The notes under the pieces are model-generated. The model saw nothing but the letters and a program-made list of their open reading frames with translations, had not been told where the DNA came from and did not search any database. This document shows, piece after piece, positions 18,387 through 24,712 of a stretch of DNA of 24,712 bases; within the stretch, counting starts at the first letter, position 1, and each line of letters begins with the position of its first letter. The DNA comes from a virus. Position numbers and translations under genes: made by a program. Where the stretch lies: IMG/VR virus record IMGVR_UViG_3300006071_001298, positions 1 through 24,712 of that record, one strand, 5' to 3'.

Positions 18387-18462
18387 AATTTAATGTTTTT
18401 GTTTGTTAATAATACTCTATATAATACAATATCCGTACCATTAGGATTAAACTGACAATTTG

Positions 18463-19133
18463 TTAGAATTTTCCAACATTGAAAGTAAATGTGTCAGATT
18501 TTGCTGACTGTCTTTCAATAATTGTACTCATATGGTCTGCCCAATGCATTACATATTGTATGTTTGATTTAAGATATTTACTTGTATCAAAAACCTTATA
18601 ATATTTTTGATTATCTTCATCATATAAACCATCGGTTAATTTAATACCAAAATATTCATTTTCAGTAATTGCAATTGCGTATTGATTTAATAATAACATA
18701 GTTCTATCCGTTGCGGTTAAATATGATAATTGTGGGTTTCTCTTATAAACTTCTCCTCTTTCAACATGCCATTTACTATCATTTGGTACATAATTTAATT
18801 GCTCTTTAGTACCTAATTTACCTAAGTCGTGATGTAAGCAGTAAAAATCAATTCCTCATCAGTAAAATCAATATTACCACCTTGCGATGCAAATAACTCT
18901 TTCATTTTAATTGCGTTTTTACATACATTAAAGATGTGGTCAATATAACCACCCTCATACGCATTGTGATAATTTACATTACCACTCGCAGGTGATACTA
19001 TCAAATTTCCACCTAATTCATCTTCCGAATACATAAACAATAACTTGTCTAATCTTTCTCCGGTAAAATACTTTTTAATAATAGCAAGAAACTTATCATA
19101 GTTCTGCTTTAATTCTACATCTGTTTTTTTCAT
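18463..19133 (-). pseudogene. HD-domain phosphohydrolase interrupted by a one-base frameshift
   Basis: Two reading frames together encode one protein. Frame one starts at ATG 19133 and ends at TAG 18822 (103 residues) with 'NYHNAYEGGYIDHIFNV' (first His ligands) and 'FTDEELIFTAY'. The next frame then supplies 'HDLGKLGTKEQLNYVPNDSK' from 18831 and runs to the stop at 18463, including 'MLLLNQYA' and 'YVMHWADHMSTIIERQ'. One added base makes 672 bases, exactly 224 codons, giving a complete HD phosphohydrolase of the YhaM-like type. The missing base lies between about 18831 and 18848, where a run of five T's (coding strand, 18847-18843) is a likely spot. It could be a true mutation, a sequencing or assembly indel, or a recoding site, though no canonical slippery heptamer is seen. 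The likely substrate is a nucleotide or RNA. Confidence 0.85.
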
Positions 19134-19435: not shown

Positions 19436-19466
19436 CAAATATACTAAATTTTATTCTAATCACAAA
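19436..19466 (-). promoter_or_regulatory. Bacteroidota-type promoter for the acidic-protein/HD unit
   Basis: On the minus strand TTTG (19466-19463), 19 bases, TATATTTG (19443-19436). Same spacing as the other three promoters, and the -7 region shares the 14-mer GTATATTTGAGTAT with the deformylase promoter. The -33 box lies within the 3' end of the lipoprotein gene. The predicted start near 19430 leaves a leader of only about 7 bases before ATG 19423. Confidence 0.75.
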
Positions 19467-20064
19467 TAATTTTGATTGATTTTTGAATTGAATCCAGTTT
19501 AATCTTTGAAAACAAATTATCTACTGGGATTTCTATTGTATATTTTGCTTTAGCTGTAATTGTAATCGTATCACCTTTCATTGCCGAAACTGGTGCGAAC
19601 ATTGTATTAACTTCACCACTACTTCTATCTGAATAAGAAACCGGATTTATTGTAGGAATTAAATATGATTGATATGAAATTAATGGTTTAAGATTAACAG
19701 TCATTAATTTTCCAGTGAATGTATTGAAATATGTTTTTACTAATTGTGCCGTAGTATCACCTGCACTTAGTACCCAAAAATGGTCACTACTCCATAATAT
19801 TTGTTCATCAACCGGCGATGGTATTTTATTTGGTTTACCATCTACTAAAAATGTACCTGTTATACGAGCTAAGTTTTGGAAAGACATTGTATCAATAATC
19901 ATATGATAAAATCCATTCTTATCCAAAGTAAGTGAATTTGAACCTGTCCTATTTAATACTGAATCTATCGAAAATAAAACTGAATGTTGTGGTGGTATTG
20001 GTGTAGTAACTTCTTTATTACATGCACATAAAAATATAATACCAATAATAGATAAAATCTTCAT
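19456..20064 (-). CDS. Phage-encoded lipoprotein
   Basis: 202 residues. The N-terminus 'MKILSIIGIIFLCACNKEVT' is a short lipoprotein signal: basic start, hydrophobic core (3-12) and the lipobox L12-C13-A14-C15, giving a lipidated Cys15. The following N-K-E resembles the charged lipoprotein-export signal known from flavobacterial surface lipoproteins (Cys-x-Lys-Asp/Glu), so surface display in a Bacteroidota host is possible. The remainder is beta-rich with Thr/Ser/Pro and no recognised domain. It has its own promoter. Phage lipoproteins often block superinfection by coating receptors or DNA-entry machinery, and this could be such a conversion factor (inference). A second cysteine (201) lies next to the C-terminus. 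Confidence 0.8.
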   Translation of the reverse strand: MKILSIIGIIFLCACNKEVTTPIPPQHSVLFSIDSVLNRTGSNSLTLDKNGFYHMIIDTMSFQNLARITGTFLVDGKPNKIPSPVDEQILWSSDHFWVLSAGDTTAQLVKTYFNTFTGKLMTVNLKPLISYQSYLIPTINPVSYSDRSSGEVNTMFAPVSAMKGDTITITAKAKYTIEIPVDNLFSKIKLDSIQKSIKIICD

Positions 20065-20136: not shown

Positions 20137-20167
20137 TTATAACTTGTTGATAATCAATTAGTTATAA
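20137..20167. repeat. Inverted repeat overlapping the stop of an oxygenase gene
   Basis: Arms TTATAACT (20137-20144) and AGTTATAA (20160-20167) flank a second small inverted repeat TTGAT/ATCAA (20147-20157), so the 31-base stretch is nearly palindromic. It covers the TAA stop of the gene at 20162-20686. On the coding strand the hairpin is followed by an A tract, not a T tract, so it is not a standard terminator; on the plus strand a T7 run follows a few bases later (20174-20180). It may be a weak terminator or a protein-binding palindrome. Confidence 0.4.
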
Positions 20168-20686
20168 TAATGTCTTTTTTTCTTTTGATTCGAACTGAAA
20201 GAATGTGATTAAACTATATCTAACTCCACTTTTAACCGGAGAAACTCTATGCATTAAAGTTTCATCCATTAATAGTGTTTTATTTGTGCTAGGCTTAATT
20301 TTATGAATATTTGAATCTTTATCTTTGTATTCAAATTCACCATTTTCAAAATCATCATTTAAATAAGTAACCGCTGTCATATACGACATATCATGATGAA
20401 AATCATCATTCTTATTTGTTTCGGGTACAACTTTGTTAATCCAACTATTAACTTTAGAAAAATCGATTACATTAAATCTATTAATATTTACATTATTTTG
20501 TAATGCAATTTTTAATTTTGAATAGTAAATTTCCAAATCTTTATTATCAATAAAAACTCTATTGTAATAATTTGAACTAGTTTTTCTATTAATTTTATCA
20601 AAATTATCCGTATTAAAATCTAAACATTTTAAATTTAAAAATTCTAATTCTTCACTTGATAAAATATTGTGAAGTTCAATAATCAT
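20162..20686 (-). CDS. 2OG-Fe(II) oxygenase, prolyl-4-hydroxylase-like
   Basis: 174 residues. The core is 'NDDFHHDMSYMTAVTYLNDD' (93-112) with His97-x-Asp99, then 'FENGEFEY' (113-120), 'LLMDETLMHRVSPV' (138-151) with distal His146, and Arg156 in 'SGVRYSLITFF' for 2-oxoglutarate. This is the compact P4H-type layout (HxD ... G-G/G-E-F ... H ... R). It starts on the base after the stop of the zinc-ribbon-like gene, so they are co-translated. P4H-like enzymes hydroxylate protein side chains or small molecules; the target here is unknown. It has low similarity by eye to the other oxygenases of the window, so it is not a recent duplicate. Confidence 0.83.
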   Translation of the reverse strand: MIIELHNILSSEELEFLNLKCLDFNTDNFDKINRKTSSNYYNRVFIDNKDLEIYYSKLKIALQNNVNINRFNVIDFSKVNSWINKVVPETNKNDDFHHDMSYMTAVTYLNDDFENGEFEYKDKDSNIHKIKPSTNKTLLMDETLMHRVSPVKSGVRYSLITFFQFESKEKKTLL

Positions 20687-20968
20687 TTAAAAAATAGTTT
20701 TCTTCTTTTTTTGTTGTATGAAAAATGTATCATCTACATTTTCCCATTTTTTTAAGGGACATGGGTTATATTCATTTGTGAATATTTTTTTGCCAATTGG
20801 ACACCCACATTCATTACAAAATTCACCCCACTTCTTTTCTTTAAATAATCTTTTTTTAGAAGGACACTCATCACAAATCTTACCTCTAGCTTCCGCTAGT
20901 TCCTTTTGTGCCGGTGTTGGATTACCCGCAATAATCCATGCTTCAACGATTTCTTTAAAATTCAACAT
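20687..20968 (-). CDS. Cysteine-rich zinc-ribbon-like protein
   Basis: 93 residues. Two Cys knuckles, C32-x2-C35 ('ICDECPSK') and C51-x2-C54 with C56 ('FCNECGCPIGKK'), plus C70 in 'NPCPLKKW' suggest one or two bound zinc ions. The N-terminus 'NFKEIVEAWIIAGNPTPAQKELAEAR' resembles a small unnamed phage protein family with the same 'EAWI.A..PT..Q..LA..R...C..C' order (recalled from family experience, not searched). The C-terminus is basic ('QKKKKTIF'). It may bind nucleic acid or a protein partner. It is coupled to the downstream 2OG oxygenase. Confidence 0.77.
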   Translation of the reverse strand: MLNFKEIVEAWIIAGNPTPAQKELAEARGKICDECPSKKRLFKEKKWGEFCNECGCPIGKKIFTNEYNPCPLKKWENVDDTFFIQQKKKKTIF

Positions 20969-20986
20969 ATAACCTTTTATTTAATA

Positions 20987-21076
20987 TTATGAATGTGTTG
21001 TAACTATTAAATTACCAATTTGGGTAACAATAGTATTCATAGCTTGGATATCAGTATCAGAAATTATCTTGCTCAT
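20987..21076 (-). CDS. Possible 29-residue mini-protein
   Basis: An ATG at 21076 opens a 29-codon frame ending with TAA at 20987: it begins MSKIISDTDIQAMNTIVTQI and ends in NLIVTTHS. It occupies most of the 126 bases between the Hint-like gene and the zinc-ribbon gene, which is otherwise empty in a window where genes abut. The upstream sequence is A-rich (TAAAATATATAAAATATG), like other starts here. The peptide would be an amphipathic helix. There is no homology evidence; it may be a short leader, a small effector or chance. Apart from it the gap holds only A/T-rich sequence. Confidence 0.45.
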   Translation of the reverse strand: MSKIISDTDIQAMNTIVTQIGNLIVTTHS

Positions 21077-21094
21077 ATTTTATATATTTTAAAA

Positions 21095-22591
21095 TTAACA
21101 GTTAGGTGCTGTACAAATGTGTTGTACATTACAATAAGGTTGTGTTTTATTTGGGCAAACATAACATTGTCCATTACAACTTGCACATGATCCACAACCA
21201 AAATTATGTTCAAATAATGCAAATGTATTATCCGTAGTAGTATCTTTTACAATGTAGCAGTGTTCTGCACTTTTAACCGATACAATCCAACCTTCAAAAA
21301 TAGTAGATTCAACTACTACTGAACTTACGGTCTTTAATAACGCATCAAACGCTGCATCATCCGTATTAGTTGTGTTTACACCGATTAATTGGTCACCATT
21401 AATTAAATCACCACTTACTACCCATCTAACTTCATTATCTCTAAGTGTTAAAAAACTTACAACATTACCATCGGTCCAAGTAGTTCCATCGGTAAAAGTT
21501 ATTGTTGCAATTTTTGAATATGTTTGTAATGGTATCACATATCCAAGTGGTGCAGTTGTATAAGTTAAACCACTAACAAATGTTGTGTAATCCATATGGA
21601 AATTAGCAGATTCATTTGTTGTATCGGTATTATTTGGATTTGGGAACACTATTGTTTTAATAATATCATCTTCCTTTAATTCAGATGGAAATTTCCAAGT
21701 ACCATCTGCCATTTCGATTTTATCGGTATTGCGTAATTTAGGGTGACCAGATTGTCTAACAACATTAGTTAAATATCTTCCTCTAGAAAGATCTTCTAAT
21801 TCAAAAGTATCAGTATTATAAGTTGGAGTTTCACTAAATAAATCCAATTCTGGTATTTGTGTGTTTTGTCCCAAACTAATTGATTCTAATGTAGGTGGAT
21901 ATAACAAATTATATGATCTTATAGTTTGAATATGTGAACCAAACAATAATTTATCTGCATTAAATAAAAATTCAGTTAAAATATATTGGTCACCCAAAGA
22001 ATCAATTACTTTATCTAAATCAGTCTGAGTTGTTATTTTTAATAATTTAGGATATACATTAATATCATAGTTAGGATATCTTGATTTTATAATAAAGTTT
22101 GGGTGCACTCCATTATCCTTAATTTCATTAATTGTATTTATTAAAGTACCATTTGAATCAGTTAATGCGTATTGTAAACCAAAAGTTGAATTACCAACTA
22201 ATTGTAAAAAATTACTCTTATCTGCACAATATGTATCATCTATAATAGCGGTAGTATCATATGCACTTCTGATAATTAAAATATCATCACCATCCTCAAC
22301 ATACGGTACAGTCAATGAATCACCACCTACATTGTAGTAAGTATACTCAATTGAATGTGTATTACAAAATGGACTTAATGCCTGATTTAATTCTGCAATA
22401 TCCCCAATATACACTAATTTTGTAAAATTGTTATTTGTAATAAATGCTTCTAATGCTTCAAAATTGAATACATCTTCTACCTTTTCTATAATGCTGTTTG
22501 GATTTAAAGTAACATTTGTATTGATTTCAATAGGCTTTAAATTACCTGAGTTATCATACATAAAGTCAGTACCAACTAATACGGTTCTCAT
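21095..22591 (-). CDS. ATP-grasp-like / degenerate Hint-like protein with Cys-rich C-terminus
   Basis: 498 residues in three parts. (1) Residues 1-~280: 'GTDFMYDNSGNLKPIEIN' (7-24) looks like the C-terminal metal-binding strand of ATP-grasp enzymes (D...G...EIN), while 'ILIIRSAYD' (104-112), 'ADKSNF' (123-128) and 'PNFIIKSRYPNYD' (164-176) look like their earlier parts, so the order appears permuted. (2) About 284-463: a Hint (intein/hedgehog) pattern, 'NTDKIEMADGTWKFPSEL' (288-305), 'SGDLINGDQLIG' (393-404), 'GWIVSVKSAEHCYIV' (434-448) and the terminal 'FALFEHN' (457-463). The expected N-terminal Cys and the TxxH His are not visible. (3) 464-498: 8 cysteines in 35 residues. The domain calls are pattern-based. 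The gene follows the 2OG oxygenase cluster after a 57-base gap. Confidence 0.72.
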   Translation of the reverse strand: MRTVLVGTDFMYDNSGNLKPIEINTNVTLNPNSIIEKVEDVFNFEALEAFITNNNFTKLVYIGDIAELNQALSPFCNTHSIEYTYYNVGGDSLTVPYVEDGDDILIIRSAYDTTAIIDDTYCADKSNFLQLVGNSTFGLQYALTDSNGTLINTINEIKDNGVHPNFIIKSRYPNYDINVYPKLLKITTQTDLDKVIDSLGDQYILTEFLFNADKLLFGSHIQTIRSYNLLYPPTLESISLGQNTQIPELDLFSETPTYNTDTFELEDLSRGRYLTNVVRQSGHPKLRNTDKIEMADGTWKFPSELKEDDIIKTIVFPNPNNTDTTNESANFHMDYTTFVSGLTYTTAPLGYVIPLQTYSKIATITFTDGTTWTDGNVVSFLTLRDNEVRWVVSGDLINGDQLIGVNTTNTDDAAFDALLKTVSSVVVESTIFEGWIVSVKSAEHCYIVKDTTTDNTFALFEHNFGCGSCASCNGQCYVCPNKTQPYCNVQHICTAPNC

Positions 22592-22627
22592 ATTTTTCTA
22601 TTTTCTTTGTTTATATCTATAAGTATA

Positions 22628-22647
22628 ATAATTTTTAAAAAAATTAT
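22628..22647. repeat. A/T hairpin in the leader of the Hint-like gene
   Basis: Arms ATAATTTTT (22628-22636) and AAAAATTAT (22639-22647) with a 2-base spacer form a perfect 9-pair A/T inverted repeat in the 57-base gap between the oxygenase stop at 22649 and the gene start at 22591. No T tract follows on the coding strand. It could be a weak terminator or an A/T palindrome of no function. No TTKG-N19-TATMTTTG promoter is present in this gap. Confidence 0.3.
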
Positions 22648-22648
22648 A

Positions 22649-23155
22649 TTAAAGTAATGTTTTGTTTAATTTATATTTTTCTATTTTATAATCCCATGGA
22701 TTTATTGCGATTATAATTCGTTCACCTCTAAATGGTTCTACCATATGTAATAATCCTTTTGGGAATGTAATTAATTCATTTGTTTTTGGGGTGTATGTTT
22801 CCAACTCTGTTATCAAATTTCCCCCAATTAAATTTTCAATTTTTGCATAGTATACTATACTGCAAATGGGTGTTTTAATTTCACCTGTTTTACTTTTTAA
22901 AACGTCATCTGAATCTATGTGCCATCCAGGATGTGTGTTGACATGTGACCAACATTCTATACCAACCATGTTTGATAAATCAACATATTCATTTATTTTG
23001 TTTAGTATTTTTTTCAATGGTAATTCTGCATGTTCAAATGTTTTATAATTTCCATCAAACCATTGACTAGATTTATTATTTTTAAAATAATCTAACATAA
23101 TTACATTTTCATTTGGTGTTAAGGCCGATTCAATTTTTATTATTTTATTGCACAT
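22649..23155 (-). CDS. 2OG-Fe(II) oxygenase (aspartyl/asparaginyl hydroxylase-like)
   Basis: 168 residues. 'THPGWHIDSDD' (74-84) holds His79-x-Asp81. 'FPKGLLHMVEPFRGERIIIA' (131-150) holds distal His137 and Arg146 for 2-oxoglutarate, followed by 'INPW' (151-154). The phrase 'WHIDSD ... CSIVYYAKI ... GGNLITE' fits a cupin-like dioxygenase. The 'H.V.P..G.R' end is typical of this superfamily. It lies 2 bases after the next oxygenase gene, the third of three in a row. The substrate is unknown. Confidence 0.83.
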   Translation of the reverse strand: MCNKIIKIESALTPNENVIMLDYFKNNKSSQWFDGNYKTFEHAELPLKKILNKINEYVDLSNMVGIECWSHVNTHPGWHIDSDDVLKSKTGEIKTPICSIVYYAKIENLIGGNLITELETYTPKTNELITFPKGLLHMVEPFRGERIIIAINPWDYKIEKYKLNKTLL

Positions 23156-23157
23156 AT

Positions 23158-23682
23158 TTAAAATAATTTTTGTTCTTTATCTAAAAAAAATTGTAATGTA
23201 ATTCTATTAGGTGCACCTATGTTTACACAACTTACAGAATGTTCTACACCATCCATCTGCAAAACAGCTAAGTTTTTATCAGGTTTAATTGCCTTTATCT
23301 CAGTATCTTCTTTATACATTAAATACCCACCCCAATTATCATTCCATTCTTCATTTAAATAAACTGTCAATGCTGCTTTAACATGCGTATCATCATGCCA
23401 TGTAATGTAACTTAATGGTGGAAAAATATGAATAACAATGTTTGTAATTACATATGGAATTTTAGGTTCACATTCTAATTTAATTTTTCTAAGAATATCC
23501 AATTCGTTTTTACCAAACTCATATCTTGCAATCAATCCACTATTACCTTTTAAACTATCTTGCCAACTAAGATTTGTATTAAATAAACCAGATTTATTTC
23601 TTATTAAAGAATTTACATATTCAGTTATTTCGGTGTATAGTTCTGAACTAAAAAATGATTCATATTTTATTATATTTTTCAT
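23158..23682 (-). CDS. 2OG-Fe(II) oxygenase, P4H-like
   Basis: 174 residues. Landmarks: 'NIVIHIFPPLSYITWHDDTH' (81-100) with His96-x-Asp98, 'ALTVYLNEEWNDNWGGYLMY' (104-123) with the Gly-Gly turn, and 'LQMDGVEHSVSCV' (141-153) with distal His148, then Arg160 in 'NRITLQFFL'. The arrangement matches the P4H group in which 'YLNxxWxxxxGG' precedes a two-strand lid. The first codon overlaps the preceding oxygenase stop by 4 bases. I judge it a complete, potentially active enzyme on an unknown target (protein, sugar or nucleotide). Confidence 0.85.
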   Translation of the reverse strand: MKNIIKYESFFSSELYTEITEYVNSLIRNKSGLFNTNLSWQDSLKGNSGLIARYEFGKNELDILRKIKLECEPKIPYVITNIVIHIFPPLSYITWHDDTHVKAALTVYLNEEWNDNWGGYLMYKEDTEIKAIKPDKNLAVLQMDGVEHSVSCVNIGAPNRITLQFFLDKEQKLF

Positions 23683-24329
23683 ATGATACTTTTATTTTCC
23701 GTTTTTACAATAGTGTTGAAATTTATAATATATCTATTGTGTTCCTTCGGCCATCCTGGTGTATGTAACAATATACCATCAAAAACAACAACTCTACCTT
23801 GCTTTGGTGATACGGATACAATCTCTTCTAAATTTTTAAAATCACCCGTTATTGCTTCTTGTTCAACTTTATTATTTATTATAGGTGTATTTCCTAATTT
23901 ATTTCTAAAAAGTGTTGTACTACCATCGGTATCATTAACATAATATACCATAACTAAATGAGGTATGTCTTTATCAGTATGTATCTGTCTTAAAAAAACT
24001 TCACTATCCGGATAAGGTGATATAGGTGGATAACAACTTAACTTATATCTGTAATTAGATAATAATTTCATATCAATTTTTTCTAATACTGTGTTTTCTA
24101 TATTTTTAACAATATCAATAATATTAGAATCTACCTTAGTTTTTGAATTTATATCAATTGACCAAGCTGGAAATTCATAATCATAAAATCCATGATTATC
24201 TCCATGTGATATATCTTTTTTAAAATGAACCCAATTTTTATAATTGTTATCAAAATAATTTAGCAATTCTTTTTGTAAATCGGTAGTTATTATATCATCT
24301 ATAACATAATATTTTTCACCCAATACCAT
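23679..24329 (-). CDS. 2OG-Fe(II) oxygenase
   Basis: With ATG 24329 as start the protein is 216 residues, beginning MVLGEKYYVIDDIITTD. An upstream in-frame ATG at 24371 would add 14 residues but overlap the glycosyltransferase end by 41 bases, while 24329 starts 1 base after its stop, as is usual here. The iron and 2-oxoglutarate ligands are in 'RQIHTDKDIPHLVMVYYVND' (His131, Asp133 in the longer numbering), 'DGSTTLF', 'VVVFDGILLHTPGW' (His203) and Arg213 in 'HNRYIINFN'. This is the largest of the three clustered oxygenases. It is distinct in sequence from its neighbours, arguing for different substrates rather than duplication. Confidence 0.84.
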   Translation of the reverse strand: MVLGEKYYVIDDIITTDLQKELLNYFDNNYKNWVHFKKDISHGDNHGFYDYEFPAWSIDINSKTKVDSNIIDIVKNIENTVLEKIDMKLLSNYRYKLSCYPPISPYPDSEVFLRQIHTDKDIPHLVMVYYVNDTDGSTTLFRNKLGNTPIINNKVEQEAITGDFKNLEEIVSVSPKQGRVVVFDGILLHTPGWPKEHNRYIINFNTIVKTENKSII

Positions 24330-24330
24330 A

Positions 24331-24712
24331 CTATAATAATTTACTTGATTTTTTAATTTTATATCTTTCAAATGGATTCATCGTTTCATTTCCTCTGTTT
24401 AAATAAAGATAAATAAATTCATCTATATGATATTCTGTTTTTAATAAAGGCAATATATCCCTCATAAAATATGAATCTTCACCATGATTGATATCATAAA
24501 ATTTTATCTTCTTAACCAATTCAGATTTTATAACATTTTTTTGGTCAGGTGTAAAATTCATTATTGCATTTTCATAATCGATTTTATTATTAGGTGGTGC
24601 AAATCGTATTGAACAATATTTGTGAAAATTTTTAAGTTTACCCCATTGTTCTATATTACACCATTGGTTAAATGATATCACATCTACATCTTCATTAATT
24701 CCTTTCATAATC
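24331..24712 (-). CDS. Glycosyltransferase (GT2-like), N-terminal part outside window
   Basis: The frame is open to the right edge; the first visible Met is at 24708, but the preceding codon is ATT, not a stop, and the visible piece looks like the C-terminal half of a glycosyltransferase, so I treat it as partial. 'DVDVISFNQWCNI' near the start resembles the strand after the DxD region. 'YDINHGEDSYFMRDILPLLK' (about 71-90) contains the acceptor-side Glu-Asp catalytic motif, followed by 'HIDEFIYLYLNRG'. It ends 1 base before the preferred start of the 2OG oxygenase. A sugar-modifying role would fit the rest of the island. If the true start is 24708, it would be an unusually short, truncated GT. 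Confidence 0.65.
   Translation of the reverse strand, partial: IMKGINEDVDVISFNQWCNIEQWGKLKNFHKYCSIRFAPPNNKIDYENAIMNFTPDQKNVIKSELVKKIKFYDINHGEDSYFMRDILPLLKTEYHIDEFIYLYLNRGNETMNPFERYKIKKSSKLL

Follow-up and report, generated by a model that had tools for sequence, protein, structure and literature searches.

The sequence studied here, called the window throughout, is the whole 24,712-nucleotide stretch of the IMG/VR virus record IMGVR_UViG_3300006071_001298. On its minus strand it carries a gene that we call the hub, flanked by a cassette of genes for predicted modifying enzymes. The features of the locus are as follows.

21095..22591, minus strand: hub (precursor) gene, a 498-aa ORF with a permuted ATP-grasp domain, a Hint domain and a Cys-rich tail
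21752..22591, minus strand: circularly permuted ATP-grasp domain of the glutathione synthetase/GspS type, residues 1-280 (from structure matches and invariant residues)
22517..22567, minus strand: ATP-grasp metal-binding motif D...E-x-N-T, residues 9-25, moved to the N-terminus (invariant in 100 homologues)
21203..21739, minus strand: Hint/intein-like domain, residues ~282-463 (coordinates are those of residues 285-463), without Cys1 and the block-B T..H
21203..21208, minus strand: H462-N463, predicted C-terminal self-cleavage site by Asn cyclisation (H in 99/100 and N in 100/100 homologues)
21098..21202, minus strand: hypervariable tail peptide, residues 464-498, with 8 Cys, the predicted released product (sequence after N463)
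20687..20968, minus strand: 93-aa Cys protein (cl3, phrog_13558), near-obligate partner of the hub, tag KKTIF
20162..20686, minus strand: 2OG-Fe(II) oxygenase, tag KKTLL
22649..23155, minus strand: 2OG-oxygenase-like protein (weak match), tag NKTLL
23158..23682, minus strand: 2OG-Fe(II) oxygenase, tag EQKLF
23679..24371, minus strand: 2OG-oxygenase-like protein, tag NKSII
24331..24708, minus strand: glycosyltransferase-like protein at the window edge, tag SSKLL

Single-protein searches of the hub against Pfam, PHROG and PDB sequences returned nothing useful; an HCBP-related match (E 0.011) was weak, lay below the cut-off and was discarded. Profile searches of IMG/VR retrieved 220 relatives with a first profile and 222 with a second, more divergent one. 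From these relatives 112 distinct hub proteins were collected, and 100 homologues serve for the column counts given below. The same three-part layout is common to more than 110 homologues, nearly all of them on IMG/VR phage contigs, which reach 335 kb; an architecture kept in so many proteins is not a matter of chance. Among INPHARED phages, the hub, its partner cl3 and the sulfotransferase-like family cl1 were all without a match. One scan of a bacterial and archaeal genome collection with the hub profile found none, and a second gave a single match (VHCC01000082.1), on a 3.7 kb contig of a Pelagibacterales MAG that is probably a mis-binned or stray phage contig. Bacteroidota-type promoters (TAnnTTTG) showed no enrichment over shuffles. 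The AlphaFold2 model of the hub, built with 100 homologues, has a pLDDT of 88.9 and a pTM of 0.84, with the tail (467-498) as its only unordered part. The initial annotation had read ATP-grasp-like, Hint-like and Cys-rich parts fused in one protein; the predicted fold, which resembles both ATP-grasp and Hint structures, the structure matches and the homologues indicate that all three are real.

Residues 1-280 modelled alone reached a pLDDT of 93.2. Their best structural match is yeast glutathione synthetase, found by Foldseek with an E value of 2.9e-6 (1m0t) and by VIA with Z 9.4 over 227 residues and an rmsd of 4.9 (1m0w), followed by the E. coli proteins YjfC (Z 9.0) and YgiC (8.7) and by GspS (8.1); human glutathione synthetase was matched too. 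The glutathione synthetase branch of the ATP-grasp enzymes is reportedly circularly permuted. Eukaryotic glutathione synthetase, glutathionylspermidine synthetase and the YgiC-YjfC proteins have their E-x-N near the N-terminus, and in the hub D9...E22-x-N24-T25 likewise occupies the position expected for a permuted domain. The permutation suspected earlier is thus borne out by the fold and by this N-terminal motif. In the alignment of 100 homologues D9, E22, N24, R108, D112, D118, K169 and R225 are invariant, while K125 is kept in 82% and the hinge residue E207 in 88%. The hub nevertheless differs from the glutathione synthetase group in its fusion to a Hint domain and a peptide, and in having no detectable sequence match: an N-terminal-domain profile run against PDB sequences gave no glutathione synthetase, only a chance match to dynein, and the RimK model was weakly matched in 3 of 92 homologues (best E 0.017). 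At Z 9.4 and rmsd 4.9, the structural matches of this domain are moderate, which counts against the explanation that we favour below.

The Hint domain matches intein and BIL-domain structures with Z up to 15.8 (6y75, a BIL domain; rmsd 2.2 over 140 residues, aligned range 280-465), and the superposition places residue 285 of the model at the first intein position and N463 at the terminal intein Asn. As in BIL domains and inteins, the fold ends in a His-Asn pair, and no +1 nucleophile is required. Unlike them, the hub family is missing both Cys1 and the block-B T..H, as had been noticed at the outset: position 285 is Lys here and never Cys in 100 homologues (K44 H28 I12 S10 D4 V2), and of the two block-B columns 374 is Asp or Glu and 377 is mixed. 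Therefore neither splicing nor N-terminal cleavage is expected, and we do not file the domain as a splicing intein. Its most conserved feature is the H462-N463 pair. In inteins, Asn cyclisation can cut the C-terminal side even when the N-terminal step does not take place, and the two assisting His residues are each dispensable in some of them (PMC4031507). The block-F His, present in the window protein as H444, is replaced by Asp in more than half of the homologues (D56 H34 R5 M4 K1); this could slow Asn cyclisation and counts against cleavage. In 21 close pairs pN/pS was 0.17 for the ATP-grasp domain, 0.16 for the Hint domain and 0.40 for the tail. The initial annotation had left a choice between C-terminal-only cleavage and decay. 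The first is the best reading of sequence and model, because H462-N463 is kept, the Hint fold ends at the Asn and the domain appears to be under purifying selection as strong as that on its ATP-grasp neighbour; the second is at odds with that selection.

After N463 comes the tail announced by the first reading, FGCGSCASCNGQCYVCPNKTQPYCNVQHICTAPNC, with 35 residues and 8 Cys. In 100 homologues the tails extend 23-162 residues past N463 (median 36), and no two are identical. Their Cys number is even in 99 of these 100 proteins, which are related and do not amount to 100 independent events; 6 Cys occur in 55 and 8 Cys in 37, in 64 distinct spacings. Compared with the hub body, the tails are enriched in Cys (30-fold), Trp (4.8), Pro (3.0) and Gly (2.7), and depleted in Asp, Glu, Lys and Thr. 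When hub bodies are 80-90% identical, non-Cys tail residues are only 52% identical. Graspetide systems also associate an ATP-grasp enzyme with a small peptide (e.g. PsnB, 7dro). However, Foldseek places PsnB much lower than glutathione synthetase among the matches of the hub, and graspetide-type crosslinks are unlikely because the residues that form them are those in which the tails are poor. In the MHN group of homologues (e.g. L009, L090, L007), those tails that are without the S74 domain discussed below often end in K-[LIV] (PFKL, PQKL, QEKL, EKI), which faintly recalls the enzyme tag.

The genes around the hub recur with it. Over 112 hub loci, cl3 (a 95-aa Cys protein) was found in 102, the 2OG oxygenases of family cl0 in 101 and the sulfotransferase-like cl1 in 97; conversely, a scan seeded with cl3 gave 68 new loci, of which 65 contain the hub and three lie on contigs that stop at cl3. 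One homologue of cl3 is weakly DUF6171-like. The cassettes also include Trp halogenase (1.9e-87), radical SAM, Asp/Asn beta-hydroxylase (4.9e-13) and SET proteins (6.2e-12; closest to PBCV-1 vSET, 2.7e-23), several types of 2OG oxygenase, and a family, cl27, closest to guanidinoacetate methyltransferase (E 2.7e-21). An APS kinase (cl11, 6.7e-20) is present in 33 loci, every one of which has sulfotransferases, and this suggests that the phage supplies their PAPS. It always comes with a small nucleotidyltransferase-like protein, cl9 (L089, L131, L064 and 30 more loci); the kinase gene is found upstream of the hub, close to one for a DUF2061 membrane protein. Several minor features were seen at these loci. 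Untagged short paralogues of cl3 with CPLNKW as their last residues are found at a distance from the cassette core (L010:2839-3057 and L132:6812-7030), and in a second cl3 copy of L010 (5675-5962) the tag is borne by a C-terminal extension, as if it were a modular addition. In the window itself, a cl10 gene (18462-19133, minus strand; about 215-228 aa in relatives, e.g. L014:12711-13394) is broken near 18830 into a first part of 103 aa and a remainder in another frame; the break may be genuine or may come from misassembly. A predicted lipoprotein (MKILSIIGIIFLCACNKE; 19456-20064, minus strand), with relatives in the collected loci (cl30), adjoins the cassette.

Unrelated cassette proteins end in a common K-[S/T/K/N]-[LI]-[IL]-COOH. 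This tag is carried by 41-100% of the members of 15 unrelated families and by 35-39% in three more, for example by 89% of the 2OG family cl24, 73% of cl3, 67% of cl0 and 50% of the SET proteins. It occurs in 0% of 35 other local families, in 4-17% of four more, and at 0.44% of internal cut points. Within the window the tag is confined to the cassette (20162 to 24708), where six of seven genes bear it, the exception being the hub; all 112 hubs are without it. Tag frequency peaks at 0.56-0.69 in positions +1 to +4 of the hub and falls to about 0.06 twelve genes away, and only 3 of 203 opposite-strand genes carry it. A DNA signal, in the form of a T4-late-promoter-like TATAAATA over the stop codon, was considered and rejected: it was found in 10 of 594 cases, with varied Ser, Thr, Leu and Ile codons. 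Because the codons are diverse, the tag acts at the peptide level. Moreover, at positions -1 and -3 the tags that different families carry in the same locus are more alike than permuted tags (0/1000 each), as expected if a single co-evolving partner reads them. A literature search that covered few subscription papers turned up neither a description of the hub architecture nor an enzyme tag of this kind, and the shared tag is the element for which we found no counterpart.

The presence of each enzyme family was compared with the residue composition of the tail by phylogenetic regression (PGLS) on the hub-body tree over 99 loci, that is, in 1040 family-residue tests (52 families x 20 residues). 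The strongest association was that of the guanidino methyltransferase cl27 with tail Arg (t 5.5), which was found before cl27 had been recognised as such an enzyme, and the second was that of SET with tail Lys (t 4.2). The 2OG families cl24 and cl0 were associated with tail Pro (t 3.1 and 2.3), which ranked first of the 20 residues for both. These four positive associations were absent from residues 1-463, from the Hint domain alone and from neighbouring proteins, in which cl0 went with less Pro. Pairs of nearest relatives gave ratios of 9:1, 10:3, 14:3 and 9:2 for the four. When only loci flanked by 4 kb or more in both directions are counted, the SET-Lys pairs fall to 7:3 (p 0.17), and the cl0-Pro association drops to p 0.08 when the last four tail residues are left out. 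After phylogenetic correction there was no association of Trp halogenase with Trp, of Asp/Asn hydroxylase with Asn or Asp, of sulfotransferase with Tyr, or of the 2OG family cl6 with Pro. The combined p of 1e-5 for the positive associations is optimistic because they are a selected set and other pairs were negative; in addition, many contigs are short, which makes enzyme presence and absence noisy. The initial annotation had raised the idea of a modified peptide, and the enzyme cassette, the shared tag and the associations with tail composition lend it independent support.

We propose, as somewhat the more probable account on balance, that the hub is both the precursor and the centre of a phage peptide-maturation system making a self-releasing, enzyme-decorated, RiPP-like peptide. 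The precursor would hold the peptide while tagged enzymes decorate it, and would then release it. For release, the Hint domain, having no N-terminal nucleophile, would cleave at its C-terminus only: N463 would cyclise with the help of H462 and free the 35-residue tail, a prediction based on invariant residues, fold and selection. The tail would be the variable core, its cysteines pairing most likely as disulfides outside the reducing cytoplasm. From the matching between enzymes and tail composition, we infer that its side chains may be decorated by prolyl-type 2OG hydroxylases, SET Lys methyltransferases, guanidino methyltransferases and sulfotransferases, the last presumably fed by the phage APS kinase. 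One partner would read the shared tag and gather the enzymes, and the simplest candidate for this reader is the hub itself. Enzymes of the glutathione synthetase type couple a peptide carboxylate to an amine, and the ATP-grasp domain, whose catalytic residues are intact, may perform one ATP-driven ligation on the carboxylate of a peptide. The product would be either a free peptide released at lysis or, in the branch described next, a segment of a trimerised virion tip. A bolder proposal, to which we give a slim chance, makes the fused ATP-grasp domain the tag reader: it would activate the free C-terminal carboxylate of tagged enzymes and ligate these to either the hub or the peptide, so assembling them covalently around the precursor by a phage-encoded conjugation of the ubiquitin or sortase kind.

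The peptide may not be free in every case. In 17 of the 112 homologues, among which the window protein does not figure, an S74 self-cleaving chaperone follows the Cys segment; its Pfam score is below the cut-off, and a Ser + Lys(+5) dyad is present in 17 of 17. This dyad is known from the S74 domains of phage endosialidases and MYRF (PMC3742443). Since it comes right after the Cys segment, the segment is flanked on both sides by a domain apparently capable of self-cleavage. From the S74 branch it would seem that some products, at least, are trimeric virion parts, and the hub could more generally be a tail or fibre tip protein, with the Hint domain as a structural spacer, the Cys tail as the receptor-contacting tip and the cassette decorating virion proteins or glycans. 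A C-terminal trimerisation chaperone is a tailspike feature, baseplate genes are present in the window, and receptor-binding proteins typically have hypervariable tips. Yet a spacer has no need of an H-N pair conserved at 99-100% while other Hint positions drift, invariant ATP-grasp catalytic residues are odd in a structural part, and most homologues have no S74. We consider this reading unlikely, but a released product could still be bound to the virion, given the trimerisation domain of the 17 homologues, and being a peptide does not preclude being a virion protein.

It is more doubtful that the tagged enzymes act on polysaccharide or other non-tail substrates, the hub being one more enzyme and the tag a common signal for localisation or turnover. 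Some cassette families do look glycan-related, namely the glycosyltransferase-like protein and the sulfotransferase, which is closest to heparan sulfate 2-O-sulfotransferase (E 0.0024), and the window encodes a Nol-type carbamoyltransferase. However, SET and guanidino methyltransferases target Lys and Arg-type groups, not sugars, and track Lys and Arg in the tail only; furthermore, the hub is the sole member that is never tagged, and the tag gradient is centred on it. A shade less probable again is a Hint-released toxin, in which the tail would be an effector that the enzymes only tune. Polymorphic toxins are known to use a HINT domain placed directly ahead of the toxin domain for release (PMC3482391), a variable C-terminal effector being set free by autoproteolysis, and the hub, with its conserved body and hypervariable Cys-framework tail, is laid out in the same way. 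It differs in having a permuted ATP-grasp domain rather than a secreted stalk at the N-terminus, with no secretion leader apparent, in its predicted product, a small Cys-rich peptide, and in the phage cassette of tagged modifying enzymes, which, like a fused ATP-grasp domain, is not part of the polymorphic toxins described; no immunity-like partner (conserved, untagged and small) stood out in the cluster table. Finally, that a decayed intein is fused to a decayed enzyme and followed by a non-functional read-through tail would fit the loss of Cys1 and of the block-B T..H, but is scarcely credible, being contradicted by strong and equal purifying selection on both domains, invariant catalytic residues, the even Cys parity and more than 110 intact homologues.

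The peptide-maturation reading finds its closest parallel in RiPP systems, in which a conserved N-terminal part precedes a hypervariable core, tailoring enzymes are encoded alongside and the core is released by proteolysis. In the hub cassette the "leader" is instead an ATP-grasp-Hint enzyme of 463 residues that is itself predicted to free the core, the enzymes, which would modify the core, share a C-terminal tag, and the whole is encoded by phages. On the best reading, the cassette would function in the manner of a RiPP system that, as polymorphic toxins do, uses a Hint domain for release, with both release and modification predicted; we do not claim that it belongs to the RiPP class. If this is true, phages have combinatorial peptide factories of their own, in which the precursor is predicted to free its own product and about fifteen enzyme families or more are directed to a single assembly line by the C-terminal tag that they share. 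It would also explain phage clusters of 2OG oxygenases, sulfotransferases and methyltransferases that have no known substrate, would open a large source of naturally diversified, disulfide-type peptides, and would offer a short, genetically encoded tag that might serve to bring enzymes to a substrate of choice. A cluster with some of the same families occurs in the T4-like cyanophage S-CREM1 (Synechococcus phage, locus L165; OP535465, 56663-64780), in which, as in the hub cassettes, a Trp halogenase accompanies a row of 2OG oxygenases. The stretch examined has neither tag nor hub gene; it has a JmjC protein and eight 2OG oxygenases beside a collagen-like gene, and is possibly a parallel system with a different substrate.
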